Below the pieces are notes generated by a model. The model was not told the DNA's origin. It worked only from the letters and a program-made list of their open reading frames with translations, and did no database searches. 64,000 bases of DNA from Methanomassiliicoccus luminyensis B10. GTDB taxonomy: Archaea > Thermoplasmatota > Thermoplasmata > Methanomassiliicoccales > Methanomassiliicoccaceae. The translations under genes were made by a program, and so were the position numbers. Of this stretch, positions 27,401-43,796 are shown piece after piece; position 1 is the first letter of the stretch; the number at the start of each line of letters is the position of its first letter. The stretch is from the NCBI RefSeq assembly GCF_000308215.1, contig NZ_CAJE01000012.1, forward strand, positions 434,001 through 498,000, read 5' to 3'.

Positions 27401-28879
27401 CTACCTCCGGCCCCTTCTCCATATCGCGTACAGCACGATGCCCAATATCGCCGCGGAGGATGCCGCCGCGATCGCCCATGGAGGCTCTGGATCGGTATCC
27501 TCACCGCGGTCGGCCACCGCCTTTCCTCCATAAGCCTGCCACGACTCGCTGTGTATGCTGAGGTAATGAACGGTCACGTCGGTGCGGTAGAAGACGTCCT
27601 CGCCCATCAAGGGCATATTGCCGTCGAAATAGATGTCCTGGAGCGATGTGCATTCTGAGAACGCGCTCGACCCCAGGGTCGTGACGGTGTCGGGGATGCG
27701 GATCGAAGTGAGCGCCTTGCAATCCCAGAACGTCCCTTCGCCTATAGATACGAGCCCTCTTCCGAGATCAATATGGGCCAGGGACGAGGCCTCATAGAAC
27801 GCGTACGGGCCAATATCCGTCACCTTGCTCAGAGATATAGACCCCAGCGACGCGCACCTGTAAAACGCCGAGCCTCCCACGGACGTTATATCTCCCTTCA
27901 TGGTCAGATCGGAGATCGACGACCCGTATCCGAATACCCGCTCCTCTATCGCCGATATGCCGCTGCCGACCACGACCTTCTCCACCGAGTTGCAGATGTA
28001 GAACGCCCCTCCGCTCATGCACTTGACCGTGTCAGGGATCATGATCTCGGTGAAAGAATGGCAATCGCGGAAGGACTCGAACCCGATGAACTCAGTGTTC
28101 CGAAGGTCTACATCGGTCAGCTTGTTGCTGTTCCTGAACGCTTCGTCGCATATCACCCTCAGGGACTCCGGGAACGCTACCGTCAAGAGCGACACGCAAT
28201 CATAGAACGCCCGCACACCGATACTTTCCACGCCCTCTCCCACGATCAGGGACGATATGCCGGTCCCCCTGAACGCTTCATCGCCTATCGACTTCACCGG
28301 TACGCCTGACACCTCCGAGGGGATCGATATTTTAGTGCCTGCCACAAGGCCGTGGACCACCGCCTTCCCGTCGATCACGTAGTAAGAGATCGAGCTGTCC
28401 GCGTCGGAATATATCATGAGATCGAGCGCGGCCGGGAGGGAGCCCCATCCTTCCGCGCCTTCCAGCACGTATATCTCTACCCCATCGGGGATGCCGTCAT
28501 CCCCCAGCGTCGGACGGTCGCCAAGGAAGTACACCCTCTCCAGATCGGCGCAGTCACTGAACGCCGTATCAGATATCGAAGTGATGGAGGAGGGTATGAC
28601 CAGCGTATCGGCCGTACACCCGGACAGGGATGTCACCGTCCTCAAAGGGTATCCCTCTAGAGCGGATTGGATGAACACGGTCCCGGAGCCTCCCGTCAGG
28701 CCGAGGATCTCGGAAGCGTAGTCGGCGGACGTAGCCCCGGATGTTCTGTATTTATACACGCCACCGGGGGACGCGTACTCGGACGGCGATAGGCCCTCTG
28801 CAGGCACGGTGATGTGGACCACGGACAGCACGAGCATTGCCAGGACCAGGAACGCGAATACGAGGCTCCTTCTCGGCAT
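27401..28879 (-). CDS. Secreted BspA-type leucine-rich repeat protein with C-terminal membrane anchor
   Basis: 492 residues. Signal peptide (SLVFAFLVLAMLVLSVVHITVPAEG), then at least ten BspA/TpLRR (LRR_5) repeats of the form SIGDEAFRGTGISSLIVGEGVESIGVRAFYDC and LTSIRIPDTVTTLGSSAFSECTSLQDI. It ends in a membrane helix and Arg-rich tail (AAAILGIVLYAIWRRGRR). BspA-type LRRs bind host or microbial surface ligands. It is the last gene of the seven-gene importer operon, 4 bp after the zinc-ribbon gene. The same repeat type forms the middle of the giant dockerin protein at 38391. Confidence 0.9.
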   Translation of the reverse strand: MPRRSLVFAFLVLAMLVLSVVHITVPAEGLSPSEYASPGGVYKYRTSGATSADYASEILGLTGGSGTVFIQSALEGYPLRTVTSLSGCTADTLVIPSSITSISDTAFSDCADLERVYFLGDRPTLGDDGIPDGVEIYVLEGAEGWGSLPAALDLMIYSDADSSISYYVIDGKAVVHGLVAGTKISIPSEVSGVPVKSIGDEAFRGTGISSLIVGEGVESIGVRAFYDCVSLLTVAFPESLRVICDEAFRNSNKLTDVDLRNTEFIGFESFRDCHSFTEIMIPDTVKCMSGGAFYICNSVEKVVVGSGISAIEERVFGYGSSISDLTMKGDITSVGGSAFYRCASLGSISLSKVTDIGPYAFYEASSLAHIDLGRGLVSIGEGTFWDCKALTSIRIPDTVTTLGSSAFSECTSLQDIYFDGNMPLMGEDVFYRTDVTVHYLSIHSESWQAYGGKAVADRGEDTDPEPPWAIAAASSAAILGIVLYAIWRRGRR

Positions 28880-28883
28880 ACCC

Positions 28884-29570
28884 TTACCTTCCTTCCCGGC
28901 CGGAGGGACGATGTCTTCCGCGGGTCGGGCGCCTTTCCATGCCGCAGAGCGATCCCGGAACGAAGCTCCTGCCGCCCTTCGCGCCTGCGATCGTCTCGGC
29001 CGGGTCGTTCCATTTCTTCGATCTGCATCTGGGGCAGGACTTGGGAAGCGCGTCCCCGTACAGCTTCCATTCGTGCCCGCATCTGGCGCATTTTCCTAGC
29101 GAGATCATCTTATCCCACCGAGAGGATCTGCACGCGGGGCATGATGTGGGCGGGGACGACCTCGGCCTCCAGGTGTGGCCGCATTTCCTGCATGTGCACT
29201 GTCGGCTGAGCGACATCCATTTGGTGGACTTGCACGACGGGCACCTCTTCGGGGACGGAGATCTGGATATCCACGAGTATCCGCATAGGTGGCATTCGAA
29301 TGAGTGGTACCCAATCTCGACCCATGTCGACATCCCGCAATGGGGACATCGCTCATCGCTACTCACCCAAGTGGTCCCGCAATCTGCGCATGTACGTTGC
29401 TCCAAGGCCGCCTCCGACCACCGTCCACTGTGGCACTTCGGACAGCGCTTCGGCGGATGGCTGCCCTTGGACAGCCAGGTATGGCCGCACCTGCCGCAGT
29501 GGAGGGTCCTGGCGCCTACGTTTTGGGACGGCCCGGGAAGATCACAGGAGAGCCGACCATCCACCATCAT
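28884..29570 (-). CDS. Tandem zinc-ribbon protein (about five ribbons)
   Basis: 228 residues. Repeated units of the form C-x2-CG-x-TW ... CP-x-C-x-S-x-x-W: CGRCGHTWLS/CPKCHSGRW, CADCGTTWVS/CPHCGMSTW, CHLCGYSWIS/CPSCKSTKW, CRKCGHTWRP/CPACRSSRW and CARCGHEWKL/CPRCRSKKW. No enzyme domain or membrane segment. It could bind DNA, RNA or proteins and may regulate the operon. The ATG overlaps the stop of the ATPase gene (ATGA). The basic tail (MERRPTRGRHRPSGREGR) is consistent with nucleic acid binding. Confidence 0.85.
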   Translation of the reverse strand: MMVDGRLSCDLPGPSQNVGARTLHCGRCGHTWLSKGSHPPKRCPKCHSGRWSEAALEQRTCADCGTTWVSSDERCPHCGMSTWVEIGYHSFECHLCGYSWISRSPSPKRCPSCKSTKWMSLSRQCTCRKCGHTWRPRSSPPTSCPACRSSRWDKMISLGKCARCGHEWKLYGDALPKSCPRCRSKKWNDPAETIAGAKGGRSFVPGSLCGMERRPTRGRHRPSGREGR

Positions 29571-30370
29571 ACAGCCCCAACCTTGTATCTTTTCGGCAGG
29601 ATGTAGATCTCCCCGTCGGCATCCGTGCCCACGCGCGCTTCCACCTCGTACACGTCGCGGACGAGGTCCTCGGTTATCACCGTCTTGGGATCCCCGATAT
29701 TGACGATCTCCCCCCTCCTCATGATGATGCAGGTGTCACAGTACCTCGCCATCAGCGATATGTCGTGCTCCGCCACCAGGACGGTCATGTCCGTCTTCGA
29801 CATGGCCTGCAGATATTCCATCACCTGCAGCTTGTATTTCATGTCAAGATGCGACGTCGGCTCGTCGACTAGCATCAGCTTCGGCTCCTGGACGTATGCC
29901 TTGGCGATCATGGCGCGCTGGCGTTCCCCGGAGGACAGCGTGGACACGTGATTGTGCCTGAGCTGGTCTATCCCGAACGTGCGGAGCGCCTTGCGGACGA
30001 TCATTTCGTCGTCCTTGGTCTCCCACCATATCCTGTTCCCGTACGGGTACCTGCCGAGCATGACCATCTCCATCACGGTCATGCCGAAGGTCGGCCCCGA
30101 TTCCGCGGGGACGGAGGCAACGAGCTTGGATATCTCCGAAGGTCTCAGCCCGGCGATGTCCCTGCCGGCCACGTGGATCGATCCAGAGGTCACGCCATGT
30201 ATCTTGGAGATGCACTTCATCATCGTGGACTTGCCGCACCCGTTCGGGCCTATCAGGCCGACCATGAGACCCCTGGCCAGGTCCAGGTTGATATCCTTAA
30301 GCGCCTCGAACCCGTCGAAGCTCTTATGAAGCCCTTTGATGCTCAGCGCCGCCTCATCCATTATACTCAC
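29567..30370 (-). CDS. ABC transporter ATP-binding protein (BtuD/FecE family)
   Basis: 267 residues. Walker A GPNGCGKST near residue 40, Q-loop region in VASVPAESGPTFG, signature LSSGERQRAMIAKAYVQEP, Walker B LMLVDEPTSHLD and switch His in VLVAEHD. The pattern is that of cobalamin/Fe-siderophore importers. The C-terminus has the family's TEDLVRDVYEVEARV segment. It overlaps the permease gene by 17 bases and is cytoplasmic, powering the FecCD permease. Confidence 0.95.
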   Translation of the reverse strand: MSIMDEAALSIKGLHKSFDGFEALKDINLDLARGLMVGLIGPNGCGKSTMMKCISKIHGVTSGSIHVAGRDIAGLRPSEISKLVASVPAESGPTFGMTVMEMVMLGRYPYGNRIWWETKDDEMIVRKALRTFGIDQLRHNHVSTLSSGERQRAMIAKAYVQEPKLMLVDEPTSHLDMKYKLQVMEYLQAMSKTDMTVLVAEHDISLMARYCDTCIIMRRGEIVNIGDPKTVITEDLVRDVYEVEARVGTDADGEIYILPKRYKVGAV

Positions 30371-31502
30371 GTCCTTTCTTCATGAGCATGTAGGCAAAGA
30401 CCGGTGTACCGATCATTGCCGTTATCGCTCCCACGGGGAGCTCCAGCGGAGATATGACTGTTCTGGCCAGCAGGTCGGCGAACAGCATGAGCATGGCCCC
30501 CAATACGATGGATGCCGGCATGATCAGCCTATGGTCCCCTCCGAGCGCCATCCTGCAGGCGTGAGGGATAACGAGCCCCACGAAGCCGATGATGCCGACG
30601 AACGCCACGCAGACCGCCGTGAGCACGGACGCCACGACCATCATCGATCTCTTGAACCTCCGGACGTTCAGGCCGAGCTGCTGGGCCTGTTCCTCCCCGT
30701 TTATGAACAGGTTGAACTCCCGGGCCCACAGCATGGCGATCAAGGAGATCCCCATCGCCGGCACGAACACGATCCAGGCGTTCTCCCAGGTGATGTTGGC
30801 GAACGACCCGAAGAGCCACCACATCGCGTCGGTGAGGTAGTCTTTTCCCAATGACAGGAATATCGTCTGGACCGACGAGAAGGCAAAGCCCACTATCACT
30901 CCGGCGAGGATGTAATTGGTGGACGACCCCCCGGAACCTTCGGCGACGGTCATGGTCAGGGCGAAGGCCACGAGACCGCCCACTATGGCGGCCAGAGGTA
31001 TGACGTACAATGAGCCGTTCCCGAGGAACGGCACCGTCGCTCCCAATGCGATGACCGCGACGGCGGCGCACCCTGCTCCGGATGATACTCCGGTGATGTA
31101 GGGGTCCACCAACGGGTTCCTTATGATAGCCTGGTACATGCATCCCGCGATGGCCAGGCCCGCGCCGACCCCGATGGCGGCGATCGCCCTCGGCAACCTC
31201 GCCACATATATGTACAGCTCGACGGTGTTGAGGTTATTTCCGCCCTTCATCAGCGCTGAGAACATCGCCGCGACGGCATCCGTGACCGGGATGATCCCGC
31301 CGGACGATATCGAGATGGATATCAGGAAGGCGACCAGCGCCATCAGGGCGCCGAACACCGTGATCACGATGAAGCGCCGTTTCTTGACATCGACATCGAA
31401 GACCTCATCCTCAGCGGGGGCGGCCCTCCTTTTCCTCGTTTTACGGGCGCCGCCCCTGCCCCCTTCGCCCTTTCCTCTCTTCAGTTTATCCAACGGAATC
31501 AC
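30354..31502 (-). CDS. ABC transporter permease (FecCD/BtuC family)
   Basis: 382 residues with about ten membrane helices. Family motifs: RLPRAIAAIGVGAGLAIAGCMYQAIIRNPLVDPYITGVSSGAGCAAV and GLVIPHACRMALGGDHRLIMPASIVLGAMLMLFADLLAR. It imports corrinoids, heme or ferric chelates. A GTG start with a good Shine-Dalgarno (ttgaggtg) follows one base after the stop of the propeller gene. The N-terminal 45 residues are strongly basic (KRGKGEGGRGGARKTRKRR), longer than usual. Confidence 0.93.
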   Translation of the reverse strand: MIPLDKLKRGKGEGGRGGARKTRKRRAAPAEDEVFDVDVKKRRFIVITVFGALMALVAFLISISISSGGIIPVTDAVAAMFSALMKGGNNLNTVELYIYVARLPRAIAAIGVGAGLAIAGCMYQAIIRNPLVDPYITGVSSGAGCAAVAVIALGATVPFLGNGSLYVIPLAAIVGGLVAFALTMTVAEGSGGSSTNYILAGVIVGFAFSSVQTIFLSLGKDYLTDAMWWLFGSFANITWENAWIVFVPAMGISLIAMLWAREFNLFINGEEQAQQLGLNVRRFKRSMMVVASVLTAVCVAFVGIIGFVGLVIPHACRMALGGDHRLIMPASIVLGAMLMLFADLLARTVISPLELPVGAITAMIGTPVFAYMLMKKGREYNG

Positions 31503-31503
31503 C

Positions 31504-33390
31504 TCAATAGTATTTTCGCAAGAACAGGAAGCAAGCTATGACGAACACCAAGAGCGCGAGCCACGACCAATGGTATAGGCCATTCTCGAGGACGATCTCC
31601 CCGCTGTCGCCGTATATCTTGCCCGCCACCTCGGATATGCAGTAGACCGCACCGTAGTCGTTGCCGACGTAGATCTTCCCGTCAATGACCGTGGGGGAGA
31701 CCATCGAGTACGAGTCCGCGGAGAAGGGAGTGAGCTGCAGCCTCCATATCTCGCTGCCATCTTCGGCGTCGATCGCCATCACCGCGCCGCCGGTGGGATA
31801 GAACGTCCCCGCCGAGTAGTCCATGGCGTAGAGTACACCGTCCGCTAGCGTCAAGGACGCCTTTATCATCTGGTACGCCTGGCTGGTCCAGACGACCCTC
31901 CCCTGGAGGTCGAACTTGTATATCGCGGAGACCGCATCGGACCCCGTCCCGTCGGCGCCCCTGAGCTTGGACGAGCCGGAACTCAGCGGAGATATGTACG
32001 CGTAAAAGCCGTCCTCGACCGCCACGGGATGATTGCATAGGACGTCCAGCTTCCAATCGTATTCGGAGCCGTCCGCGCCCTTCCCTGTGGCCGCATCGAT
32101 AGAGATCACGTACCCCGTCAGCGACGACAGGCCCCCATCAGAGCAGCATACGATGAGCTTTCCTTCGCGCGTCACCGCGATGCTGCCCGCGGAACCGGGG
32201 GTTCCGGGGTGCGGCTTGTTTTCATCCCTCAGGTCTATGACCTTCTGGACCCATATCTCCTTTCCGGTGGAAGCATCCAATGCGTGGACGTTGCCCCCGT
32301 AGCTGCCGATGAACAGCATGCGCACGCCGTCCACATCGGCGATCACTGGGGGATGGTAGTAGAAGCAGCCCCTGGTGCCCGAATAATCGCCCTTGGAGCC
32401 CGTGGCCGGCGGGTCATAGTCCCAGAGCAATGAGAACTTTTTCTCAGGGGTCAGGGAATAGCACAACACGCGGCCGTCCGAGGTGCCGAAATATATCGCT
32501 CCCGAATCGTAGACCGGGGTGGTCCCGCCGGTGAGGAAGGTCCTGCCGTTCCAGATGATGTCGCCGTTGCCGTCCACGGGATAGCTCATCTCCAGTTTGA
32601 GCGTGTCCAGGAGCGTCCCGTCGTAGCGGTCCAGGCAGTACACATCACCATTGGTGGCGGTTATGACGAGCGTGTCCCCGACGATGAGCGGCGTGGTCAC
32701 CTCGTAGCCCTGTCCGTATGCGTAATGGAACTCCCAGACCAGTTCTCCGGTGTATCTGTCGAGGCAGTACACCCAGGGGTCCCGGTCAGAGCCCGCGGCG
32801 CCGTATGATCCCCCCGTGGTGTGGTAGAGGAGGCCCCCGGCCACTACGATCTCGGAGTCCACGAACCCCGTGGAGTACGTCTTGTACCATTCGGGGGGAA
32901 CGAGCGCGCCCACCGTCCCGTACGAATCAGACACGCTGGATGACGACGAGTCCCCGCCGGCGGATATCCATGCCGTGGGTTCGTCAGGCGTCTCCGCCGG
33001 GGTGATGGACCCATCGGGATAGAAGCCGATGGCGAAAGTCCCCCCATCATACTGCCCCCCCATGGCCTCTCCCGGCATCCAGGCCCCGTTCCCGGCATCC
33101 CAGACATACAAGTTCCACCGGCAGGTCTGGTCCCCCACGGAGTGCTCGGCCAGGCCGCCGACGGCGGTGATGCCGGACCCGGACACGGACACGCTCAGGC
33201 CCAGCTTGCCCGCGCAATCCTGGGCCACCGACGCATACGATCCCTGGGCGGATATGTCGCACCAGTAAGTGGTGCCGTTGCCCATGTCTATGAGCAGCTT
33301 CCCGTCCCCCGCATCGGCCGTCGTCATCGGGAGAACGGGTACCATCACCATTAGAAGCACGGCGGCGACCGCCAGCGGCAATGCCTTCAT
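31504..33390 (-). CDS. Membrane-anchored PQQ beta-propeller protein with N-terminal DUF4430-like domain
   Basis: 628 residues. Signal peptide MKALPLAVAAVLLMVMVPVLP. A DUF4430-like domain follows (KLLIDMGNGTTYWCDISAQ...RWNLYVWDAGNGAWMPGEA, about residues 28-125); DUF4430 resembles the transcobalamin C-terminal domain. Then PQQ-type propeller blades: VYCLDRYTGELVWEF, VYCLDRYDGTLLDTL, VHALDASTGKEIWVQ and VMAIDAEDGSEIWRL. It ends in a membrane helix (HWSWLALLVFVIACFLFLRKYY). The ATG overlaps the stop of the binding-protein gene. Being operonic with BtuF/C/D-like genes, it is probably a ligand-capture or docking partner of the importer. Confidence 0.85.
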   Translation of the reverse strand: MKALPLAVAAVLLMVMVPVLPMTTADAGDGKLLIDMGNGTTYWCDISAQGSYASVAQDCAGKLGLSVSVSGSGITAVGGLAEHSVGDQTCRWNLYVWDAGNGAWMPGEAMGGQYDGGTFAIGFYPDGSITPAETPDEPTAWISAGGDSSSSSVSDSYGTVGALVPPEWYKTYSTGFVDSEIVVAGGLLYHTTGGSYGAAGSDRDPWVYCLDRYTGELVWEFHYAYGQGYEVTTPLIVGDTLVITATNGDVYCLDRYDGTLLDTLKLEMSYPVDGNGDIIWNGRTFLTGGTTPVYDSGAIYFGTSDGRVLCYSLTPEKKFSLLWDYDPPATGSKGDYSGTRGCFYYHPPVIADVDGVRMLFIGSYGGNVHALDASTGKEIWVQKVIDLRDENKPHPGTPGSAGSIAVTREGKLIVCCSDGGLSSLTGYVISIDAATGKGADGSEYDWKLDVLCNHPVAVEDGFYAYISPLSSGSSKLRGADGTGSDAVSAIYKFDLQGRVVWTSQAYQMIKASLTLADGVLYAMDYSAGTFYPTGGAVMAIDAEDGSEIWRLQLTPFSADSYSMVSPTVIDGKIYVGNDYGAVYCISEVAGKIYGDSGEIVLENGLYHWSWLALLVFVIACFLFLRKYY

Positions 33391-34757
33391 GCCGAGACCC
33401 CCCTGCTGTATTTGAGATAGTCGCGGTACGTGTCGTCGAAATATTTCGGGATCACGTCCAGCGGGTCCAGCGATATGAACTTCTCGGGGTTCAATATCTT
33501 GGCCATGAGCTCCGTCGCTTCCGCGAGCCTCGGCCCCGGCCTGGACAGTATGTCGTTCGCATCTCCGGAGAAGACATACACCTCCCCGTTCTGGAACGCG
33601 GGAGTGGCCTTCCACAATGGATCAAGGGAGTCTAGGAGGCGCTGGTATTCATCCTCCGTCGACACCGGGGTGCTCGACATGATCACGATCGCCTTCGGCT
33701 GCTTGGCATAGATCTGCTCCTTGGAGACCATGAACCATGACGAGGACTGCGAATCGAACGCTCCTACCCCTCCTGCGACAGAAATGACGTCAGACATGTA
33801 CGTCTGGGAACCGGCGGTCCACGGCGACGGGTCGGAGGACAGCGCGACGAAAACCCTTTTATCGGTCCTGCCGGCAATTCCCGAGACCACGTCCACCGCT
33901 GAGCGCAGTTCGCGATTCCCGGCGTTGGCGTTCTCCGAAAGCCCCAGGGCGCACCCCACGATCCATATGTTGTCGTACAGCGTGCCCAGGTCGGTCCCGT
34001 CGTAGAGGACCACGCAATTTATTCCGGACTTGCGTAGCTTATCGGCCATGGTAACATGCTCTCCCGTGCCGCCGTCGCAGAGGACCAGGTCCGGAGCGAG
34101 CTTGATTATCCATTCGTAGTTGGGGTCGGTGTATCCCCCGATGATCGATATGCGGCCGTCCTCCTTGGCGTCGACGATCTCCTGCGGGTAGTTGCTGTAC
34201 AGGTCCGTTCCGATGATGAGGCCGGCGCCGCCCACAAATGCCACCATCTCCGTCACCGACGGAGCCAGCGTGACCACCCTCAGCCCTTCCTCGCCGGCGG
34301 CGCTTCCGCGAGCATAGTTGTAATAGCTGTGCCCCGTGGCGTCCACGCCGGGGATCACGGTATCCGGACCGGACGCGCGCGCCCAGCATAAAATGTTATG
34401 CTCCGACGCGTCCACCGACGCCGGGTCCGCCTCGGCCCAGCCGTCCGTGGAGAGAGTGTAGAAAGCCCATTTTACACCGATGAGGTTTACCTGATCGTTC
34501 ACCGAGTACACGGTGCCGTCGTCCAGTATGCCACATTCATATCCTTGGATGTCGCAGGCAGCCTTGAGGGCGTCATAGCCGTTCATTCCCCCGGTGAACG
34601 TCATCTCCGTCCACACCACGTCCCAGTATCCGAAGTCGATGATCATCCCCTGCCTCTGGTCGGCGGATGATGCGGTGAACCCCAGCATCGGTATGGTCGC
34701 CAGGACCGCCACCGCGATGACGGCGGATGCGACGAGCTTGACCGTGATGGCGTTCAT
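33387..34757 (-). CDS. BtuF-like substrate-binding protein fused to a DUF4430-like domain
   Basis: 456 residues. Signal peptide (VASAVIAVAVLATIPMLGFTASS). Residues about 37-140 resemble DUF4430 (GMNGYDALKAACDIQGYE...WAFYTLSTDGWAEADPASV). Residues about 155-440 form a class III periplasmic-binding fold: RVVTLAPSVTEMVAFVGGAGLIIGTDLYSNYP, GGYTDPNYEWIIKLAPDLVLCDGG and VYVFSGDANDILSRPGPRLAEATELMAKIL. No lipobox Cys is evident. It delivers corrinoid, heme or metal chelate to the FecCD/BtuC permease. The N-terminal fusion is unusual and shared with other proteins of this locus. Confidence 0.88.
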   Translation of the reverse strand: MNAITVKLVASAVIAVAVLATIPMLGFTASSADQRQGMIIDFGYWDVVWTEMTFTGGMNGYDALKAACDIQGYECGILDDGTVYSVNDQVNLIGVKWAFYTLSTDGWAEADPASVDASEHNILCWARASGPDTVIPGVDATGHSYYNYARGSAAGEEGLRVVTLAPSVTEMVAFVGGAGLIIGTDLYSNYPQEIVDAKEDGRISIIGGYTDPNYEWIIKLAPDLVLCDGGTGEHVTMADKLRKSGINCVVLYDGTDLGTLYDNIWIVGCALGLSENANAGNRELRSAVDVVSGIAGRTDKRVFVALSSDPSPWTAGSQTYMSDVISVAGGVGAFDSQSSSWFMVSKEQIYAKQPKAIVIMSSTPVSTEDEYQRLLDSLDPLWKATPAFQNGEVYVFSGDANDILSRPGPRLAEATELMAKILNPEKFISLDPLDVIPKYFDDTYRDYLKYSRGVSA

Positions 34758-34761
34758 AGTC

Positions 34762-35619
34762 TCATGCCAGCAATGACGGGGGAATGTCTTCGGGAGTTAC
34801 GTCCCACTCAAAGCCTACGCTGTTCACCGAGGTTGTCTGACGGACCAGCGCGAAGTAACAGACCTTGGAGATGTCGAAACCGCCCATGACGGACTGGCTG
34901 TACACCCATTTATCCCCGTTCCAATGATACTGCGACCAGTATCTCCAGTCCTTTCCCACCCCCACGTCGGCGAGGCCGAAGAAGGACCATAGCCATCCGT
35001 TGGGAGTATTCTCCATGTCCATGTCGAGCTCCCAGCCGAGCCTCTCCGCTACATCCTGGAAAGCGTACGCCGCGTCAATGCCCTCGCCGCACACCCAGAA
35101 CCCGGCCTGCCTCTCCTCGGCGGTGAGGTAGGAGGTCACGTGGCTGTTGGCATTGTAATCTTCATCGAACTTGATGAAGAACCATACTTTTTGTGCTATG
35201 GAGAAATCGGGAGCGGTGTACGAAGTTTTTCCGTCCTTGATCTCCACATCAGACAGCATCAGGGCGATGTGCGTGCGGCCATTCAGTACGATGGCATCGT
35301 TCACGGACGATAGCGGGGACCATTTCGCTTTCGACCATGTCCACATGACCCACTTCTGATCCTCCCCGGCCATCACGCCGTCAACGGAGGAAACTTGGCC
35401 CGCGGAGTTGAACACCACGTTCTCGATTGCGTTGTCGAACAGCTCCCTCAACGAGGAACCCTGGGCCTTTTTCTCAACTTTTTCCCCGTCCAGCATATAA
35501 TAAACGGTGACCCTGTCGTCGACGGCGGGGTCCTCATTATTACCGGTGTCCCCATCGTTAAGGTTCCCTATCACAACATAGACGAGAGCCCCCGAAACCA
35601 TGAGGGCCGCTATCACCAA
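34762..35619 (-). CDS. Secreted protein with two DUF4430-like domains; N-terminus probably frameshifted
   Basis: 285 residues from a TTG codon. One domain has SSLRELFDNAIENVVFNSAGQVSSVDGVMAGEDQKWVMWTWSKAKWSPLSSVNDAIVLNGRTHIALML. A second follows (about residues 150-265, GIDAAYAFQDVAERLGWELDMDMENTPNGWLWSFFGLADVGVGKDWRYWSQYHW). The frame opens inside a hydrophobic helix. An ATG at 35642 with agGCGGG upstream would read MDKK and stop, but one extra A in the A6 run (35631-35636) would join it to ITIALVIAALMVSGALVYVV, giving a normal signal peptide. First gene of the leftward operon. Ligand unknown. Confidence 0.8.
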   Translation of the reverse strand: MVIAALMVSGALVYVVIGNLNDGDTGNNEDPAVDDRVTVYYMLDGEKVEKKAQGSSLRELFDNAIENVVFNSAGQVSSVDGVMAGEDQKWVMWTWSKAKWSPLSSVNDAIVLNGRTHIALMLSDVEIKDGKTSYTAPDFSIAQKVWFFIKFDEDYNANSHVTSYLTAEERQAGFWVCGEGIDAAYAFQDVAERLGWELDMDMENTPNGWLWSFFGLADVGVGKDWRYWSQYHWNGDKWVYSQSVMGGFDISKVCYFALVRQTTSVNSVGFEWDVTPEDIPPSLLA

Positions 35620-35724
35620 TGCGATCGTTATTTTTTATCCATGGCATTTCCCGCCTGGAAGGGCGGCCCATGATATCGTTCAGATAATGGGCGGCATTAT
35701 CGGCTTCTCGCATTGGAATTATGG

Positions 35725-35741: not shown

Positions 35742-35760
35742 ATTGGATGGATAATCCAAT
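35742..35760. promoter_or_regulatory. Operator palindrome 1
   Basis: ATTGGAT-GGATA-ATCCAAT, a perfect 7-bp inverted repeat with a 5-bp spacer. It abuts the upstream side of the leftward TATA element, a place where a bound regulator would affect TBP/TFB. Confidence 0.7.
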
Positions 35761-35770
35761 ATTAATATGA

Positions 35771-35789
35771 GTTGGATATTGCATCCAAC
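35771..35789. promoter_or_regulatory. Operator palindrome 2
   Basis: GTTGGAT-ATTGC-ATCCAAC, same architecture as palindrome 1. Its centre lies 29 bp from that of palindrome 1, close to three helical turns, which would place two bound dimers on one face. It also lies about 20 bp upstream of the candidate small RNA promoter. Confidence 0.7.
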
Positions 35790-36052: not shown

Positions 36053-36071
36053 ATTGGATGTTACATCCAAT
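36053..36071. promoter_or_regulatory. Operator palindrome 3
   Basis: ATTGGAT-GTTAC-ATCCAAT, identical arms to palindrome 1. It overlaps the end of the rightward TATA-like cttattatattgg (36045-36057) and the predicted transcript start of the gene at 36106, the typical site of a repressor. Confidence 0.7.
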
Positions 36072-36105: not shown

Positions 36106-38184
36106 ATGATAGCATCAATTTGGAGAAAAACGGCTGCCATCGGCATGGTGGTCGCCATCATGGTCATGGCAATACCATTGATGGATCTCAATGCGGCGGC
36201 TGATGAAGAAGACTATTGGTTCTACGTTGACCTAACGCCTGACTATGAGCTGAACGGCGAGTGGATCCAAGGTACCGGGCCGACCCCGGCCGAGGCATTC
36301 ATCAATGCTGTGAACGCTAGATATGGCGCAGAGAACAACGATATCGATCCAAGTGGTTGGATAACTAAGGTCGACGGTTTAGCTACAGAAGGTGTTTGGG
36401 GAGGTACCTGGGAGTACTTTAACTGGGCCCATTTTGGATATGTTGATGGCGTGTTCGATCTCGATGCGCACCTAATGGGGGGAGCGAAGCCAACTACCAA
36501 CAATCAATATGCGATTTTCAGGACCCAGTACGTATGGGTTGAGATAATCTCGTATGAGGGCGCTAGTACTCTAACTGAAGCGGAGGTCCTCGGAACCGCC
36601 GAGTACGGTGATGCTGCCACATGGCCGCAGGTCATGGGCCCTGTTCCTGATGACTACACCCCTAAAGCTGTCTCCGCCACCTATGACGGAACCGAGTGGA
36701 ATGTAGTATGGTATATCCTTCCTAACGCCCAGCTCAACCATGTTGACGAGTATGCTAAACTTACCGTTCCGGCATATGGATACGCGCAGCGGGATGAAGC
36801 GGCGGGGTTGGAGCCCTATGTCCCCGGAATATCCACAGACTTCATCACCGACGTCACCAGAGGCTACGCCCCACTGACGGTGCAGTTCACTGACAGGACC
36901 TTGGACGCCGGGGATTGGCAGTGGGACTTCGGCGACGGGACCAGCAGCACAGACCAGGATCCTTCGCACACATACAGCACGCCGGGCAGATACACCATTA
37001 CTCTGACCACGACCAATGCCGGCGGCAACCACAATGCGAGCAGGACCGTGACTGTGGAGCAGGCGACCGAACCCGGTGCCCCCACCAATCTGGCGGCCGC
37101 AGCCGGTGACAGCCAGGTCGTCCTGACCTGGAACGCTCCCGCGAACGACGGAGGCGCCTCGATATCCCACTATGTCGTCTATAAGGACGGCGTCAGCATC
37201 GGCACGTACACGGGGACCTCCGCTGCCATAACCGAGCTGACCAACGGCAACCAGTACAAGTTCACTGTCGCCGCCGTCAACTCGGTCGGAGAGAGCGAGA
37301 GGTCCAATGAGGCTACCGCTACACCGAACGATGATGTCGAGGGCTTCACACCGGATACGGAGTTCCAGGTGACCGCCACATCCGATGTCAATGGCAGATT
37401 GAGCGTCACGTATGATCCCACCGTACTGAGATTCATGTCGGCCACCGGCGCGACGAGCATCGTCAACACGGAGGGAGCGGCACATATTACAACCGCAGGC
37501 GCGAACGGACCGGTGGAAGTAAAGTTCGCGGTCGTAGAGAACGCACCGATCGGACTTACCACGGTCACCCTGAACGGGGAGAGCAAGGTCTTCAACATCG
37601 TTCCCGGCGAACCTGCGATCTACAGCTCCTTCGTGATCGTCGAGCAGGACGAAGCGCGGAACATCGCGAACGTGTCTCTCTATAAGGTCTCCCAGATCGC
37701 CGGGTTCAAGCTGGTGTTCCACTACGACAGCGGCACTCCAGTCATGAACGATCTGGCCGGGCTCGGCTCCAGGGGCAGCGTTTCCACGGCGGTCGACGAA
37801 GCGGGTAAGACCATCACCGTGGTCTGGGCCAGTTCGGACAATGTCAACTTGAAAGGCATATTGTTCTCGATCAGCGGCGCCAGCGGCCTTGCGCTGTCGC
37901 CGGCCGAGGCCGATCTCAGGCACATCACGGATGACCTCAGTGTAAGCGTCCGAGTGGATGTCGGAGTAGCCAGCAGCTACGAGGACGCAGTGGCTCGTGA
38001 TCCCAACCCCAGTACGGACCTGAACAATGATGGAGCGACCGATCTCGCGGACCTCATCCTGCTGATGCAGCACCTCGCCGGTTATGAGGTGAGCATCGAC
38101 GGGGACAACGCGGACCTCGATGGCGATGGGGTCGTGGACATCCGTGACGCGATAGTCCTGCAGGACCTCATAACCGTGGCATGA
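36106..38184 (+). CDS. Secreted DUF4430-PKD-FN3-dockerin protein
   Basis: 692 residues. Signal peptide about 1-31; DUF4430-like domain about 35-148; PKD 244-318 (APLTVQFTDRTLDAGDWQWDFGDGTSS); fibronectin III 323-407. A beta-rich module spans 413-500 and a cohesin-like beta-sandwich 501-620 (VSLYKVSQIAGFKLVFHYDSG, ILFSISGASGLALSP). A type I dockerin occupies 636-692 with two calcium loops, DLNNDGATDLADLILLMQHL and ADLDGDGVVDIRDAIVLQDL. No membrane anchor, so the dockerin is the likely means of retention, presumably on the cohesin of the 44034 protein. Shine-Dalgarno gggagaagg precedes the ATG. Operator palindrome 3 overlaps its promoter. Confidence 0.9.
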   Translation: MIASIWRKTAAIGMVVAIMVMAIPLMDLNAAADEEDYWFYVDLTPDYELNGEWIQGTGPTPAEAFINAVNARYGAENNDIDPSGWITKVDGLATEGVWGGTWEYFNWAHFGYVDGVFDLDAHLMGGAKPTTNNQYAIFRTQYVWVEIISYEGASTLTEAEVLGTAEYGDAATWPQVMGPVPDDYTPKAVSATYDGTEWNVVWYILPNAQLNHVDEYAKLTVPAYGYAQRDEAAGLEPYVPGISTDFITDVTRGYAPLTVQFTDRTLDAGDWQWDFGDGTSSTDQDPSHTYSTPGRYTITLTTTNAGGNHNASRTVTVEQATEPGAPTNLAAAAGDSQVVLTWNAPANDGGASISHYVVYKDGVSIGTYTGTSAAITELTNGNQYKFTVAAVNSVGESERSNEATATPNDDVEGFTPDTEFQVTATSDVNGRLSVTYDPTVLRFMSATGATSIVNTEGAAHITTAGANGPVEVKFAVVENAPIGLTTVTLNGESKVFNIVPGEPAIYSSFVIVEQDEARNIANVSLYKVSQIAGFKLVFHYDSGTPVMNDLAGLGSRGSVSTAVDEAGKTITVVWASSDNVNLKGILFSISGASGLALSPAEADLRHITDDLSVSVRVDVGVASSYEDAVARDPNPSTDLNNDGATDLADLILLMQHLAGYEVSIDGDNADLDGDGVVDIRDAIVLQDLITVA

Positions 38185-38221
38185 GGAGCGGGGTGAGTTC
38201 AGACGATCGAGAAGATATTTA

Positions 38222-38268
38222 GAGGCTCGGCCTCAGGCGGTGGCTCCGGCCACCGCCAATCGTTTACC
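38222..38268 (+). repeat. Duplicated double-hairpin element, copy 1
   Basis: GAGGC-tcg-GCCTC is followed one base later by a perfect 9-bp stem GGCGGTGGC-tccg-GCCACCGCC and then aatcgtttacc. The same 47 bases recur after the next gene at 43828-43874. It lies 38 bp after the stop codon, between co-oriented surface genes, and no T-tract follows. It may be a processing, stability or partial termination element. Confidence 0.85.
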
Positions 38269-38390
38269 ATAACAATGTCCGAGCGGAGCTCAGGACCGCA
38301 GAGAAATCATCACATGCGAAGACAGGGCAGAACACACTGGGCAACGATCGCCCGGTTCAGGAAATAAGAAGAGAACTGAGGAGGAATAAG

Positions 38391-41300
38391 ATGACAGAAC
38401 ACAAAGTCGAAACAGTGCTCATATCATTGATACTGTTCGTTAGTATCATCGCTCCACTGGTCGCTGTCGATCTAGGCAGCGCCGCGAGCGATTGGCCCAG
38501 CGTACCGGGGAACAATGAGAATCCCTGGATCTCGGATGCATTGTCCCCCACTATCGATGAAGATCTCGCCATCAAGTGGAGCGTTATCGGGGCTACGTCG
38601 GGCATGAGCGGATGGGAAGTCCCCAGTACGGCGATTACGGTGGGCGACTATGCCTATTATTATGATCAGCTCAATAAAAAGCTAATGAAAGTCCACATCG
38701 AGGACGGCGCAGAGGCGGCTTCCGCGCCCCTGACGGCTAGCGGGTATAACTTGCCAGTAACCTATGGCAACGGCAAATTGTTCGTGCCCATGATCAATTC
38801 CAAAGTCAGCATCTACGACGCGGACACGATGGAAAAGATAGGGACCACGGATACGAAGTTAACGAAATGGAACGGCATGCAGGGACCCGTGACATATTAT
38901 GATGAATACATATATCTCGGGACCTACGGCAGCACATATCCTGGTATCGACTTCGCGTGCTTCCATGATAACGGCACATTGGCATGGTCGTTGGACGGCG
39001 GAGGCTGGGGATACTCACTGGCCCCCCAGTTCATCGAGGTCGGCGATAAGACCTACTGCGTAGTAGCCTCTAAAGGCTACGGGCAAGCAGGGATCACCGA
39101 CGGAGGTTCCACAATCTATGTCCTGGACCCTGCCACTGGATATGAGTATAGCAGGGTAAAGATCAGCGATGAATACAACCAGGGAGGCATCTCGCATTAC
39201 GAAGGCCGCATATATGTGGCCACCCAGAACGATGCCGCGACGGCCACTCACATACATTCATATGTCGTGGGAGCGGACGGCTCACTGTCCGACGAGAAGG
39301 TCTGGACCTCCAGCCTCACCGGTGGCACCCAGAGCGCGCCGGTGATCTACAACGACCGCATCTACCTCGGAAGCGGCGGGGCCACCATGGGCGCCAACAG
39401 GAACATCGAGGTCATCAGCATCGGCAGCGACGGCAGCATGACCTCGGTATACGACATACCAATAAAAACGAAGGGTACGCTCACCCTGACAACCGCGTAT
39501 GCCACCGCCGAGAACGACTACACTGTCTACCTGTATGTCACGCCGTACGACGGCACGAGCACAAACCCAGACATATACATCATTAAAGACAGCGCACATC
39601 AGACGGCCGCGCATTACAAGGGGATCGAGCTGCCCGGAGAGGGGGACCAGTACTCCTTCAACAGTGTGACCATATCCAGCCAGGGGTATCTCCTGTTCAA
39701 GAGCGACGTAGCTCTGTGGTGCGTGGAGGCGGTACGCGAAGAGTCCACACCAGGTACGGAGTTCCAGGTGTCCGCTTCGTCCGATGCCGATGGAAAACTG
39801 ATCGTCACGTACAATCCCTCTGCATTGAGGTTCGTATCGGCCACTGGTGCGACGAACATCGTCACTGCTGAAGGAACGATCACCATCACGACAGCGGGCG
39901 CGAACGGACCGGTGGACGTAACGTTCGAGGTCGTGGAGGACCCGCTTGTAGGACCTACTAAGGTAACCTTGAATGGGGCCGATGAGGTCTTCAAGATCGT
40001 TCCTAGGACCTTCGCACCCGGCATTCCCACCAACCTGGCGGCCGCCGCCGGCAATGGCCAGGTCACCCTGACCTGGAACGCCCCCGAGAACAATGGGGGC
40101 GAGGCGATAAGAGGATACATCATATACGTGAACGGCTACAAGTTCAGCACTTACACCGTCGGCGAGTACAACGAGACCGCAACAACCATAACCGGGCTGA
40201 CCAACGGCAGAGAATATACTATCACCATATCTGCCTTCAACCCGACGGGGGAGAGCGGCAGGTCCGTCGAGATCAAGGCTACGCCGACCGATGTGGTGAT
40301 CGTTCCTGAGGTCCCCAGTGCCCCCACCAATCTGGCGGCCGCAGCCGGTGACAGCCAGGTCGTCCTGACCTGGAACGCTCCCGGCAGCAACGGGGGCGCC
40401 GCGATCACTCACTACGTCGTCTACCGGGACGGCACCAAGATCGACGGCATGTTCACCGGGACGACAGCGACCGTAACCGGGTTGACCAACGGCAACCAGT
40501 ACAAGTTCACTGTCGCCGCCGTCAACTCGGTCGGAGAGAGCGAGAGGTCCAATGAGGTCTCGGCCACGCCGGTCGCTCCGGCCTCCACTTACACTTATAA
40601 AATAAGCGGAGGCACAGTGGAGATCACCAAATATACTGGGTCAGGAGGCATAGTGGAGATACCCAGCACGATCGAGGGATTGCCCGTTACTGCCATCGGC
40701 ACCAACGCGTTCCAGAACAAGGCCACTCTGACCTCGGTCACGATACCGGACAGCGTGACCAGCATCGGCACCCAGGCATTCATGGGATGCTCTGGCCTTA
40801 TCTCGGTGAGCATAGGCAGTGGTGTGACTAGCATCGGGACCAACGCATTCTACAAGTGCGCCGCCCTGACCTCCGTTACCATCCCGAGCAAAGTGATCAG
40901 CATCGGTACCAATGCGTTCCGGGACTGTACCGCCCTGACCGAGATCAACGTTGACGCCGACAACACCGCATTCAAAAGTGTCGATGGCGTGGTGTACAAC
41001 AAGACCGTAACCACCCTGATACTGTGTCCTGCGGGATGGTCCGGTTCGCTGACCATACCTAGCAGCGTGACCAGCATCGGCGACAGCGCGTTCATGGGCT
41101 GTGCCGGCCTGACCGAGGTGATAATGCTAAGCAGTGTGACCAGCATCGGAACAGGTTCGTTCAACGGTTGCACTGGCCTGACCTCGATCGCGATACCAGG
41201 CAGTGTTACGAGCATCGGGAACAACGCGTTCAGCGGATGCACCAAGCTGGCCGCGGTAACGATACCGAACAGCGTCATTAGTATCGGGACTAGCGCGTTC

Positions 41301-43796
41301 AGCGGATGCACCAAGCTGGCTTCGGTCACCATAGGCAGTGGTGTGACCAGCATCGGAGACTACATGTTCCGGTATTGCTACGCCCTGACCTCGGTCATTA
41401 TCCCGAACAACGTGAACACCATCGGCAATAACGCGTTCCAAGGGTGCAACAACCTGACCACAGCGACAATAGGCAGTGGTGTGAACAAGATCAGCAACAG
41501 CGCGTTCAGCGGATGCACCAAGCTGGCCGAGATCATCGTTGACGCCGACAACGCAGTATACAGAAGCGTAGAGGGCATAGTATACAACAAGACCGTAACC
41601 ACTCTGATACTGTGTCCTGCGGGATGGTCCGGTTCGCTGACCATACCTAGCAGCGTGACCAGCATCGGCGACAGCGCGTTCAGCGGATGCACCAAGCTGG
41701 CCGCGGTAACGATACCGAATGGCGTGATCACCATCGGCGAAGACGCATTCACCGGCTGTATCGGTTTGACCACGGTCACTATTCCAAGCAGCGTGACCAC
41801 CATAGGTGAAGATGCGTTCACTGGCTGTACCGCCCTGGCCGAGATCATCGTTGACGCCGACAACGCAGTATACAGAAGCGTAGAGGGCATAGTATACAAC
41901 AAGACCGTAACCACTCTGATACTGTGTCCTGCGGGATGGTCCGGTTCGCTGACCATACCTAGCAGCGTGACGAGTATCAATAGCGAAGCGTTCCTTGGCT
42001 GCACCGGTCTGACCTCGGTCACGATACCGGGCAGTGTGACCAGCATCGGCGCGAAAGCGTTCCAAGAGTGCACCGCCCTGGCATCTGTCACGATAGGCAA
42101 CGGGGCCGGCACCACCATCGGCACGCAAGCGTTCTCCTACTGCCCGGTCCTGAGCATAGTGACCATAGGCAGTGGTGTGACTAGCATCGGGAACAGTGTG
42201 TTCAGGGACTGCCCCGCCCTGACCTCGATCGTCATACCGAACAGCGTGACCAGCATCGGTACCAATGCGTTCGCATACTGCACCGGCCTGACATCGGTCA
42301 CAATCGGCAACGGGGTCGCCAGCCTTGGACAATACACATTCCAAGGGTGCACCGCCCTGGAAAGACTGGTCATAGGCAGTGGCATGATCAGCATCGGCAA
42401 CGACGTGTTCTATGGATGTACCGGTCTGATCACGGTCACGATACCGAACAGCGTGACCGGCATCGGGAACAACGCGTTCTACGGATGTACCGGTCTGACC
42501 AAGGTCATCATAGGCAGTGGTGTCACTACCATCGGCAGCTCTTTCTCCGGCTGCACCGCCCTGACCACCGTGGTGTTCACCGGCAATGCACCGACATCGG
42601 TCAGCAGCGCTTGGGTCAGAAATGTTCCCAATCCGGTAGTTCACTACCATCTGGGTGCCGAAGGGTTCACCACGCCGACCTGGAATAACGTCGCGTGCTA
42701 TCCTCTGGCCATACCTGATTTCGAGGCCGACGTAACTTCGGGCAACGCCCCGCTGACGGTGCAGTTCACCGACAAGAGCCTAGGCGCCGCATCGGTGCAA
42801 TGGGACTTCGGTGACGGAACCACCAGCACCGCCTGGGACCCGTCGCATACGTACAGTGCACCGGGCACATACACGGTCACCCTGACCACGATAAATGCCG
42901 GTGGTGGCAGCACCCAAACCACCATGACCGTGACCGTGATCGCGCCGCCCGTAGAGTTGCCCGTAGGGACCGAGGTCATGGTGTCTGCTTCGTCCGATGC
43001 CGATGGAAAACTGATCGTCACGTATGACCCCACCGTACTGAGGTTCGTATCGGCCACTGGTGCGACGAACATCGTCACTGCTGAAGGAACGATCACCATC
43101 ACGACAGCGGGCGCGAACGGACCGGTGGACGTAACGTTCGCGGCATTGGCGAACCTGGGACCTACCACGGTCACCCTGAACGGGGAGAGCAAGGTCTTCA
43201 ACATCGTTCCCGGCGAACCTGCGAGCTATAGCTCGTTCGTAATCGTAGAACAGGACGGCCAGCAGAACACCGCGGATGTCTCGCTCTACAAGGTCCCCAA
43301 AGTCGCCGGCTTCAAGCTGGTGTTCCACTACACTGGCGGAACTCCGGTCGTTAGCGACCTGGCCGGGCTCGGTGCCAAGGGTATCTTCTCGACAGCGGTC
43401 GACGAGGTTGGCAAGACGATAACCATAGTATGGGCCAGTTCGAGGAACATGGTCCCGAGCGGCATCTTGTTCTCGATCAGCGGAGCTGACGGCCTGACAC
43501 TATCGCCGGCCGATGCCGAGCTCAGGTACATCGCGGACGATGTAAGTGTCAGTATCCAGGTGATCGTCGGAGTGGCCAGCAGCTACGAGGACGCTGTGAG
43601 TCAGGATCCCAACCCCGCTCCCGCCGCTGACCTGAACGGGGATGGGGAGACGAACCTCGCGGACCTCATCCTGCTGGTGCAGTTCCTTGCCGGTAACGAG
43701 GTGAACATCGACGAGGACAGCGCGGACCTCGATGGCGACGGGATAGTGGACATTCGTGACGCGATAGCCCTGCAGGAGATCATAACCGTGGCATGA
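38391..43796 (+). CDS. Giant secreted propeller-FN3-LRR-PKD-dockerin protein
   Basis: 1801 residues. Signal peptide about 1-28; beta-propeller-like domain about 30-455, very similar to that of the 44034 protein; a beta-rich module about 458-541. Two FN3 domains span about 541-730 and BspA-type LRRs about 755-1415 (some 25 units such as SVTSIGTNAFYKCAALTSVTIP). PKD about 1443-1522, the beta-rich module again about 1525-1608, and a cohesin-like beta-sandwich about 1609-1728. The C-terminal dockerin (1746-1801) has DLNGDGETNLADLILLVQFL and ADLDGDGIVDIRDAIALQEI. Likely an adhesin docked on the membrane-held cohesin. A Shine-Dalgarno (gaggagg) precedes the ATG. Long exact DNA repeats occur inside the LRR part. 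Confidence 0.92.
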   Translation: MTEHKVETVLISLILFVSIIAPLVAVDLGSAASDWPSVPGNNENPWISDALSPTIDEDLAIKWSVIGATSGMSGWEVPSTAITVGDYAYYYDQLNKKLMKVHIEDGAEAASAPLTASGYNLPVTYGNGKLFVPMINSKVSIYDADTMEKIGTTDTKLTKWNGMQGPVTYYDEYIYLGTYGSTYPGIDFACFHDNGTLAWSLDGGGWGYSLAPQFIEVGDKTYCVVASKGYGQAGITDGGSTIYVLDPATGYEYSRVKISDEYNQGGISHYEGRIYVATQNDAATATHIHSYVVGADGSLSDEKVWTSSLTGGTQSAPVIYNDRIYLGSGGATMGANRNIEVISIGSDGSMTSVYDIPIKTKGTLTLTTAYATAENDYTVYLYVTPYDGTSTNPDIYIIKDSAHQTAAHYKGIELPGEGDQYSFNSVTISSQGYLLFKSDVALWCVEAVREESTPGTEFQVSASSDADGKLIVTYNPSALRFVSATGATNIVTAEGTITITTAGANGPVDVTFEVVEDPLVGPTKVTLNGADEVFKIVPRTFAPGIPTNLAAAAGNGQVTLTWNAPENNGGEAIRGYIIYVNGYKFSTYTVGEYNETATTITGLTNGREYTITISAFNPTGESGRSVEIKATPTDVVIVPEVPSAPTNLAAAAGDSQVVLTWNAPGSNGGAAITHYVVYRDGTKIDGMFTGTTATVTGLTNGNQYKFTVAAVNSVGESERSNEVSATPVAPASTYTYKISGGTVEITKYTGSGGIVEIPSTIEGLPVTAIGTNAFQNKATLTSVTIPDSVTSIGTQAFMGCSGLISVSIGSGVTSIGTNAFYKCAALTSVTIPSKVISIGTNAFRDCTALTEINVDADNTAFKSVDGVVYNKTVTTLILCPAGWSGSLTIPSSVTSIGDSAFMGCAGLTEVIMLSSVTSIGTGSFNGCTGLTSIAIPGSVTSIGNNAFSGCTKLAAVTIPNSVISIGTSAFSGCTKLASVTIGSGVTSIGDYMFRYCYALTSVIIPNNVNTIGNNAFQGCNNLTTATIGSGVNKISNSAFSGCTKLAEIIVDADNAVYRSVEGIVYNKTVTTLILCPAGWSGSLTIPSSVTSIGDSAFSGCTKLAAVTIPNGVITIGEDAFTGCIGLTTVTIPSSVTTIGEDAFTGCTALAEIIVDADNAVYRSVEGIVYNKTVTTLILCPAGWSGSLTIPSSVTSINSEAFLGCTGLTSVTIPGSVTSIGAKAFQECTALASVTIGNGAGTTIGTQAFSYCPVLSIVTIGSGVTSIGNSVFRDCPALTSIVIPNSVTSIGTNAFAYCTGLTSVTIGNGVASLGQYTFQGCTALERLVIGSGMISIGNDVFYGCTGLITVTIPNSVTGIGNNAFYGCTGLTKVIIGSGVTTIGSSFSGCTALTTVVFTGNAPTSVSSAWVRNVPNPVVHYHLGAEGFTTPTWNNVACYPLAIPDFEADVTSGNAPLTVQFTDKSLGAASVQWDFGDGTTSTAWDPSHTYSAPGTYTVTLTTINAGGGSTQTTMTVTVIAPPVELPVGTEVMVSASSDADGKLIVTYDPTVLRFVSATGATNIVTAEGTITITTAGANGPVDVTFAALANLGPTTVTLNGESKVFNIVPGEPASYSSFVIVEQDGQQNTADVSLYKVPKVAGFKLVFHYTGGTPVVSDLAGLGAKGIFSTAVDEVGKTITIVWASSRNMVPSGILFSISGADGLTLSPADAELRYIADDVSVSIQVIVGVASSYEDAVSQDPNPAPAADLNGDGETNLADLILLVQFLAGNEVNIDEDSADLDGDGIVDIRDAIALQEIITVA
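40995..41093 (+). repeat. LRR-region DNA repeat, diverged copy
   Basis: 99 bases that match 41583-41681 with one visible mismatch (c at 41015 against t at 41603), offset 588 bp, a multiple of three. They encode the KTVTTLILCPAGWSGSLTIP segment and the start of the next LRR unit. Confidence 0.85.
41523..41659 (+). repeat. LRR-region DNA repeat, exact copy A
   Basis: 137 bases identical to 41835-41971 (period 312 bp, exactly 104 codons). They encode an island between LRR blocks (AEIIVDADNAVYRSVEGIVY, then KTVTTLILCPAGWSG). Identity at silent positions indicates recent duplication or conversion. Confidence 0.9.
41835..41971 (+). repeat. LRR-region DNA repeat, exact copy B
   Basis: Second exact copy of the 137-base unit at 41523-41659, in the same frame and orientation. 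Confidence 0.9.

Follow-up and report, generated by a model that had tools for sequence, protein, structure and literature searches.

A BtuFCD-related importer operon with transcobalamin-type domains in Methanomassiliicoccus luminyensis B10: a candidate system for corrinoid capture and import

A seven-gene operon of the methanogenic archaeon Methanomassiliicoccus luminyensis B10 is likely to encode a corrinoid-regulated surface capture-and-import system of the Methanomassiliicoccales that is related to BtuFCD. The operon lies in a stretch of 64,000 nucleotides (contig NZ_CAJE01000012.1, positions 434,001 to 498,000; hereafter the window), which has a GC content of 60.5% and is part of a 2.62 Mb genome in 26 contigs. 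Methyl-reducing methanogens of guts and rumen use corrinoids as their core cofactor, and the communities in which they live are shaped by competition for these compounds. An earlier note on this DNA had proposed that extracellular DUF4430-type proteins of the operon capture a corrinoid or a similar ligand and pass it to the binding protein; this proposal is supported by profile and fold comparison and, independently, by a palindromic box common to B12-synthesis genes. In the Methanomassiliicoccales, many BtuC clades and B12 transporters located beside adhesin-like proteins have been described, and a specialised capture mechanism has been proposed (PMC10804542); the parts named here are testable candidates for that mechanism.

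ORF analysis revealed that positions 27401-35619 of the window are filled by seven genes on the minus strand, in the transcript order A, B, C, FecCD permease, ABC ATPase, multi-zinc-ribbon protein and LRR_5 protein, with junctions of +4, -4, +1, -17, -4 and +4 bp (Table 1). The tightly spaced seven-gene operon described in the earlier note was thus confirmed, with junctions ranging from -17 to +4 bp. Pfam likewise agreed with the FecCD/BtuC-type importer genes and the accompanying propeller, zinc-ribbon and LRR genes, recognising BspA-type LRR, zinc ribbons, ABC ATPase, FecCD permease, PQQ_2 propeller and PF01497 in the operon. PF01497, PF01032 and an ABC ATPase, the set expected of a BtuFCD-type system, therefore occur in a single operon, and this arrangement of binding protein, FecCD permease and ABC ATPase is held in common with the BtuFCD/FecBCD type II importers. 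The NCBIfam models for BtuF (gene B; 1.5e-20, 73.4 of 234 bits) and BtuC (permease; 3e-63, 213.9 of 334 bits) both scored under their cut-offs. Unlike in BtuFCD and FecBCD, the binding protein here carries an N-terminal transcobalamin-beta-like domain and the importer is accompanied by an extra propeller protein, which many relatives have as a fusion with the permease.

Table 1. Features of the operon and its surroundings, in window coordinates.
Feature	Coordinates	Strand	Basis
Gene A, surface protein with a signal anchor and two domains of the transcobalamin-beta/DUF4430 type	34762..35619	-	ORF, AF2 model
Gene A domain 1	35245..35523	-	best 4zrp_A Z 9.9, rmsd 2.1, 89 residues aligned
Gene A domain 2	34831..35199	-	best 3kq4_A Z 9.5, rmsd 3.0, 103 residues aligned
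Gene B, BtuF-like substrate-binding protein with extra N-terminal domain	33387..34757	-	PF01497 8.4e-29
Gene B N-domain, transcobalamin-beta-like	34302..34667	-	hhalign, AF2, PDB fold comparison
Gene C, DUF4430-like N-domain, PQQ-type beta-propeller, C-terminal TM anchor	31504..33390	-	PQQ_2 4.8e-25, TM prediction
FecCD/BtuC-type permease	30354..31502	-	PF01032 4e-84
ABC ATPase	29567..30370	-	Pfam; NCBIfam ranks corrinoid ABC transporter ATPase first, under its cut-off
Multi zinc-ribbon protein	28884..29570	-	Pfam; signal/TM prediction negative
BspA-type LRR surface protein, signal and C-terminal TM	27401..28879	-	PF13306 1e-57
Operator-like palindrome TTGGATGGATAATCCAA, operon side	35743..35759	.	
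Operator-like palindrome TTGGATATTGCATCCAA, operon side	35772..35788	.	
Operator-like palindrome TTGGATGTTACATCCAA, ahead of dockerin gene D	36054..36070	.	
Gene D, N-domain, PKD, FN3, dockerin (38014-38163)	36106..38184	+	Pfam Dockerin_1
Gene E, PQQ, FN3, LRR, PKD, dockerin (43626-43775)	38391..43796	+	Pfam
Gene S, propeller-like N-part, cohesin (45423-45788), C-terminal TM anchor	44034..45956	+	Pfam, TM prediction

The earlier note had assigned DUF4430-like domains to three genes of the operon and to the divergent dockerin gene D, and had likened DUF4430 to a domain of transcobalamin and intrinsic factor. The Pfam model of DUF4430 (PF14478) gave zero matches at E<=1 among the window proteins scanned, the sole match of the genome being located on another contig (C15:84570), and the product of gene A had no Pfam match. 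Since neither DUF4430 nor transcobalamin was significant in Pfam and PDB sequence searches (transcobalamin-2 beta-domain, E 0.69 at best), we relied on profile and fold comparison. A reference profile of 21 true DUF4430 domains from the phylum was compared by hhalign with N-domains from about 70 orthologous loci, yielding 95.2% for the gene B N-domain, 85% for a second form of gene A and 49% for the gene C N-domain, against <=0.04% for three control domains. The form of gene A found in the window reached 4.6% when compared directly with DUF4430 and 99.9% when compared with the second form, and the N-domains of genes B and C matched each other with a P of 98.4%. These profile comparisons suggest that the N-domains of the operon are remotely homologous to DUF4430. 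Thus, the assignment to the three operon genes failed in Pfam and held at the level of profile (strongest for gene B) and of fold (genes A and B). For gene D, a direct match to DUF4430 was lacking, and what stood was a relation between its N-domain and the second domain of gene A (E 1.1e-4 against an ortholog; hhalign P 95.6% against the gene A family).

Gene B contains about 120 residues ahead of its PF01497 part, and this N-domain is covalently joined to the binding protein across the whole B family. Comparison of its AlphaFold model (pLDDT 87.7) with the PDB placed the beta-domains of haptocorrin, transcobalamin and intrinsic factor at the top, with Z 9.7-10.9 over about 92 residues at 2.3-2.7 A, followed by a bacterial protein of Ruminococcus gnavus (3u7z, Z 8.4), with ubiquitin-like domains at Z <=6.8. 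Foldseek ranked the same structures first, at modest E values of about 0.006-0.04. Similarly, the best PDB folds for both domains in the AF2 model of gene A (pLDDT 88.5) were the beta-domains of transcobalamin, intrinsic factor and haptocorrin (Z 8.1-9.9, with unrelated folds at <=6.0). As modelled, the two domains of gene A and the N-domain of gene B clearly have a transcobalamin-type beta-domain fold. The resemblance to transcobalamin was therefore borne out at the level of profile and predicted fold, where Pfam alone would have contradicted it. A match between predicted folds is by itself no proof of cobalamin binding.

This beta-domain fold is held in common with vertebrate transcobalamin, intrinsic factor and haptocorrin. 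The vertebrate carriers have an (alpha/alpha)6 domain, whereas the archaeal proteins have none: it is absent from genes A, B, C and D by Pfam, and there is no space for it in genes A and B. Furthermore, unlike in the vertebrate carriers, the archaeal beta-type domain occurs in tandem or as a fusion with a BtuF-like protein or a propeller. The occurrence of this fold on a BtuF-like protein in an archaeon bears on the origin of the beta-domain of the vertebrate B12 carriers. In the literature that we searched, mostly papers available without subscription, we found no description of a transcobalamin-type domain on a binding protein, of a propeller-permease fusion or of the palindrome TTGGAT-N5-ATCCAA.

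This palindrome (box DNA TTGGATGATACATCCAA) occurs in three perfect copies between the operon and the divergent gene D, the third being located 35 bp before gene D. Genome-wide, 18 exact boxes were found where base composition predicts 0.05, and 14 boxes with one mismatch where about 2 are expected; the reversed-pattern control yielded 0. Boxes are located ahead of the hemA operon, cbiT-L-F-G-H-D, cbiC, cobD-cbiZ-cobS-cobY, cobT and cobN, and also ahead of several binding-protein/FecCD operons and one propeller-DUF4430-ECF operon, the key box-linked genes being verified by NCBIfam and Pfam. A one-mismatch box precedes cbiM, some boxes precede nitrogenase-like or CfbC-like genes, and a few lie ahead of genes without a clear B12 link. 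Independently of the DUF4430 idea, the box points to membership of the operon in a B12 (or cobalt) regulon. Since it is common to B12-synthesis genes, it favours corrinoids (or cobalt) as the ligand, rather than iron or heme.

The box is more frequent than its reversed control in nearly all sampled genomes of the order. In one genome from a second family, exact boxes were found ahead of dockerin-SBP-like, FecCD, cobN and nitrogenase-like genes, and the interval between divergent cbi operons contains a box with one mismatch. When a strict definition was applied (<=1 mismatch, within 400 bp before A or B), the box was present in 22 of 64 orthologous loci, so box-mediated regulation is not seen everywhere. 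A search for Rfam riboswitches upstream found none. The archaeal CBL-box, reportedly described by Rodionov and colleagues in 2003 as the signal through which a postulated B12 regulator of some archaea would act, is likewise a B12-linked DNA signal; we liken it to the palindrome by its description and not by its sequence. A box-bearing Lrp/AsnC gene (L026:9145-9588) was a candidate for the regulator but was dismissed because none of the 27 loci at which other genomes carry its relatives has the box.

Gene C, situated between the binding protein and permease genes, is predicted to carry a signal in addition to its C-terminal TM segment. Scanning species genomes with the gene B alignment provided 80 loci, nearly all from Methanomassiliicoccales and many from gut, rumen or termite. 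Gene C comes immediately after B in 68 of them, and in 37 of these 68 loci C and the FecCD permease form one polypeptide of 845-1339 aa. The fusion was verified by Pfam in two cases (PQQ_2 together with PF01032 at 4e-84 and 3e-85), and single-contig genomes also contain open frames of fusion length at their C matches. In the one fused protein examined for the order of its segments (L057), the propeller is followed by a TM helix and then by the permease helices. Because of these fusions and this helix order, the propeller probably stands outside the cell, at the importer permease. Such a fusion of propeller and permease would represent an unusual architecture for an ABC importer.

A surface propeller at an importer is also known from the BtuB-BtuG/BtuH systems of Bacteroides, in which BtuG, a seven-bladed propeller, binds corrinoids and caps BtuB (PMC10404256, PMC6143338). 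Gene C, with its PQQ_2 propeller, signal and TM segment, similarly places a surface propeller beside a B12-type transporter. Unlike BtuG, it combines a propeller of the PQQ/BamB type with a DUF4430-like domain and is associated with an archaeal ABC permease; BtuG is an outer-membrane lipoprotein whose partner is the TonB-dependent BtuB, whereas gene C is partnered with an ABC permease, to which it is joined in 37 loci. The 32 PDB sequence matches of the gene C propeller at E<=0.001 were all BamB, quinoproteins or designed propellers, and BtuG was not among them. By analogy, BtuG may be the nearest functional parallel of gene C, corrinoid binding by gene C being hypothetical.

The divergent side of the locus encodes dockerin and cohesin proteins. 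Gene S, 6-8 kb from the dockerin gene D, carries the only cohesin of the genome, and no multi-cohesin scaffoldin was found there. Dockerin-like matches occur at four sites, three over the Pfam cut-off and one below it: genes D and E, and the N-termini of two genes whose identity as binding proteins derives from their neighbourhood and one weak NCBIfam match. Both of these genes adjoin FecCD permeases and have boxes upstream; gene E lacks a box of its own. Thus, cohesin and dockerin domains over the Pfam cut-offs coexist in this genome, and all of its cohesin and dockerin-like domains reside in the present cluster or in box-associated genes. The confinement of the dockerins to one apparent regulon is notable, the numbers being small. 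It is plausible that the dockerin of gene D keeps a capture module at the surface via the cohesin of gene S; across the order, this cohesin-dockerin part is not conserved alongside the importer. There is precedent for the principle, since dockerins on ABC substrate-binding proteins are known from ANME archaea (PMC9012536). Dockerins are likewise linked to ABC binding proteins here, whereas, compared with ANME, they are few, limited to the cluster and box-associated genes, and accompanied by a single cohesin. Diverged cohesin-like domains of genes D and E were also considered and were not called cohesins because their match to the true cohesin reached only 32% on 33 columns.

The LRR, propeller, dockerin/cohesin and DUF4430-like parts might alternatively be adhesins or S-layer modules that merely share the operon of a corrinoid importer, an explanation that we consider unlikely. 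LRR, PKD, FN3 and propeller domains are widespread among the surface proteins of archaea, gene A and the LRR and zinc-ribbon genes differ from locus to locus, and B12 transporter genes have been found beside adhesin-like proteins in one strain (PMC10804542). Against this stand the fact that all members of the B family carry the N-domain as a covalent part of the binding protein, the fusion of propeller and permease in more than half of the loci in which C follows B, and the presence of a similar N-domain-propeller gene adjoining DUF4430 and an ECF transporter under the same box. Slightly less likely still is that the importer serves another tetrapyrrole or metal chelate (heme, siroheme, an F430 precursor, or a cobalt or nickel chelate), with the box answering to cobalt or tetrapyrrole supply: heme and siderophores are also among the substrates of the FecCD and PF01497 families (NCBIfam models IsdE, FecD and FhuB) and boxes precede the hemA operon, cbiM and nitrogenase-like/CfbC-like genes, but genes A and B have the transcobalamin-beta fold and most boxes precede corrin-specific or salvage genes (cbiT-L-F-G-H-D, cbiC, cobD, cbiZ, cobS, cobT).

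For the corrinoid capture-and-import system, we computed gene content, predicted folds, the fusion and the common box, and from these we infer the ligand, its binding and transport, hand-off, docking and the sign of regulation. A regulator protein would bind TTGGAT-N5-ATCCAA and probably repress the divergent operons when corrinoid is plentiful, the direction of this effect being conjectural. Corrinoid shortage would then lead to surface display of the transcobalamin-beta-like proteins A and D and of the TM-anchored propeller C, the latter beside the BtuCD-type importer. The transcobalamin-beta-like modules of A, D and the gene B N-domain may capture the corrinoid and pass it to the BtuF domain of B, and the N-domain of B may pre-bind the corrinoid or form a cover over it once it sits in the BtuF domain of the same protein. 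B would dock at propeller C, which may cover the mouth of the permease and act there as a lid for docking or as a receiver; import would be carried out by the BtuCD-type pair, driven by the ATPase. Gene S may tether dockerin proteins at the membrane. A full surface corrinoid-scavenging complex, in which transcobalamin-fold modules capture, a permease-fused or standing propeller receives the binding protein, and cohesin-dockerin pairs tether the parts in some species, is conceivable and is proposed tentatively. If true, it would represent a third solution besides Bacteroides BtuBG and the vertebrate carriers, partly with a vertebrate-type fold.

The DUF4430 and ECF transporter systems provide a further comparison, as they share the domain superfamily of the operon N-domains. 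One such operon is present in the genome, together with an N-domain-propeller gene and a box. These systems differ in that their transporter is of the ECF and not of the BtuCD type, and in that PF14478 gives a true score there.

With regard to the 5' end of the operon, the ATG at 35642 that the earlier note had taken as its start is one base out of frame with gene A (ATG GAT AAA AAA TAA). The gene A reading frame first opens at a TTG at 35619, an in-frame ATG being absent in the present assembly, and the anomaly reflects either an indel in the A6 run or an unusual start. This frame problem, the operator-like palindromes, the propeller-permease fusions and the cohesin partner are observations additional to those of the earlier note.

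In the M. luminyensis B10 genome, a second operon associated with the palindromic box (TTGGAT-N5-ATCCAA) encodes an ECF transporter together with an N-domain-propeller-PKD protein and a protein of the true DUF4430 type; a similar propeller/DUF4430 pair occurs in genome G019, and the propeller gene of genome G022 is preceded by a near-match box. Imperfect box copies lie near LRR proteins, a DUF4430-like-repeat protein and an ABC transporter at L027. Exact boxes also precede genes with no evident link to B12, namely an alcohol dehydrogenase-like gene with a PF00591 phosphoribosyltransferase-like gene (L025) and an amidohydrolase, the latter having an additional one-mismatch box (L019).

In gut relatives (L253, L255 and L061), the box or a near-match precedes nitrogenase-like/CfbC-like genes, which at L061 adjoin a BtuFCD-type importer of the window kind. 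Outside Methanomassiliicoccales, a FecCD permease of a Methanomicrobia archaeon (L137) is adjoined by propeller-like and BtuF-like genes.

Within the window, the GC-rich stretch GAGGCTCGGCCTCAGGCGGTGGCTCCGGCCACCGCC is common to two intergenic regions, and the N-terminal parts of the dockerin gene E and the cohesin gene S are near-identical, which together suggest a tandem duplication. The likely start of gene A, the first of the importer operon (ATG GAT AAA AAA TAA), is out of frame by one base at an A6 run, and this break may represent a sequencing error, an unusual start or a real lesion.

Positions of the loci and window features
Feature	Contig	Position
Second box operon (L022)	C15	5473-11015
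L025	C15	9595-11782
L019	C12	9793-11038
L027	C17	3871-8381
L061		4407-7872
Intergenic region, first		window 38185-38390
Intergenic region, second		window 43797-44033
Gene A start		window 35619-35642
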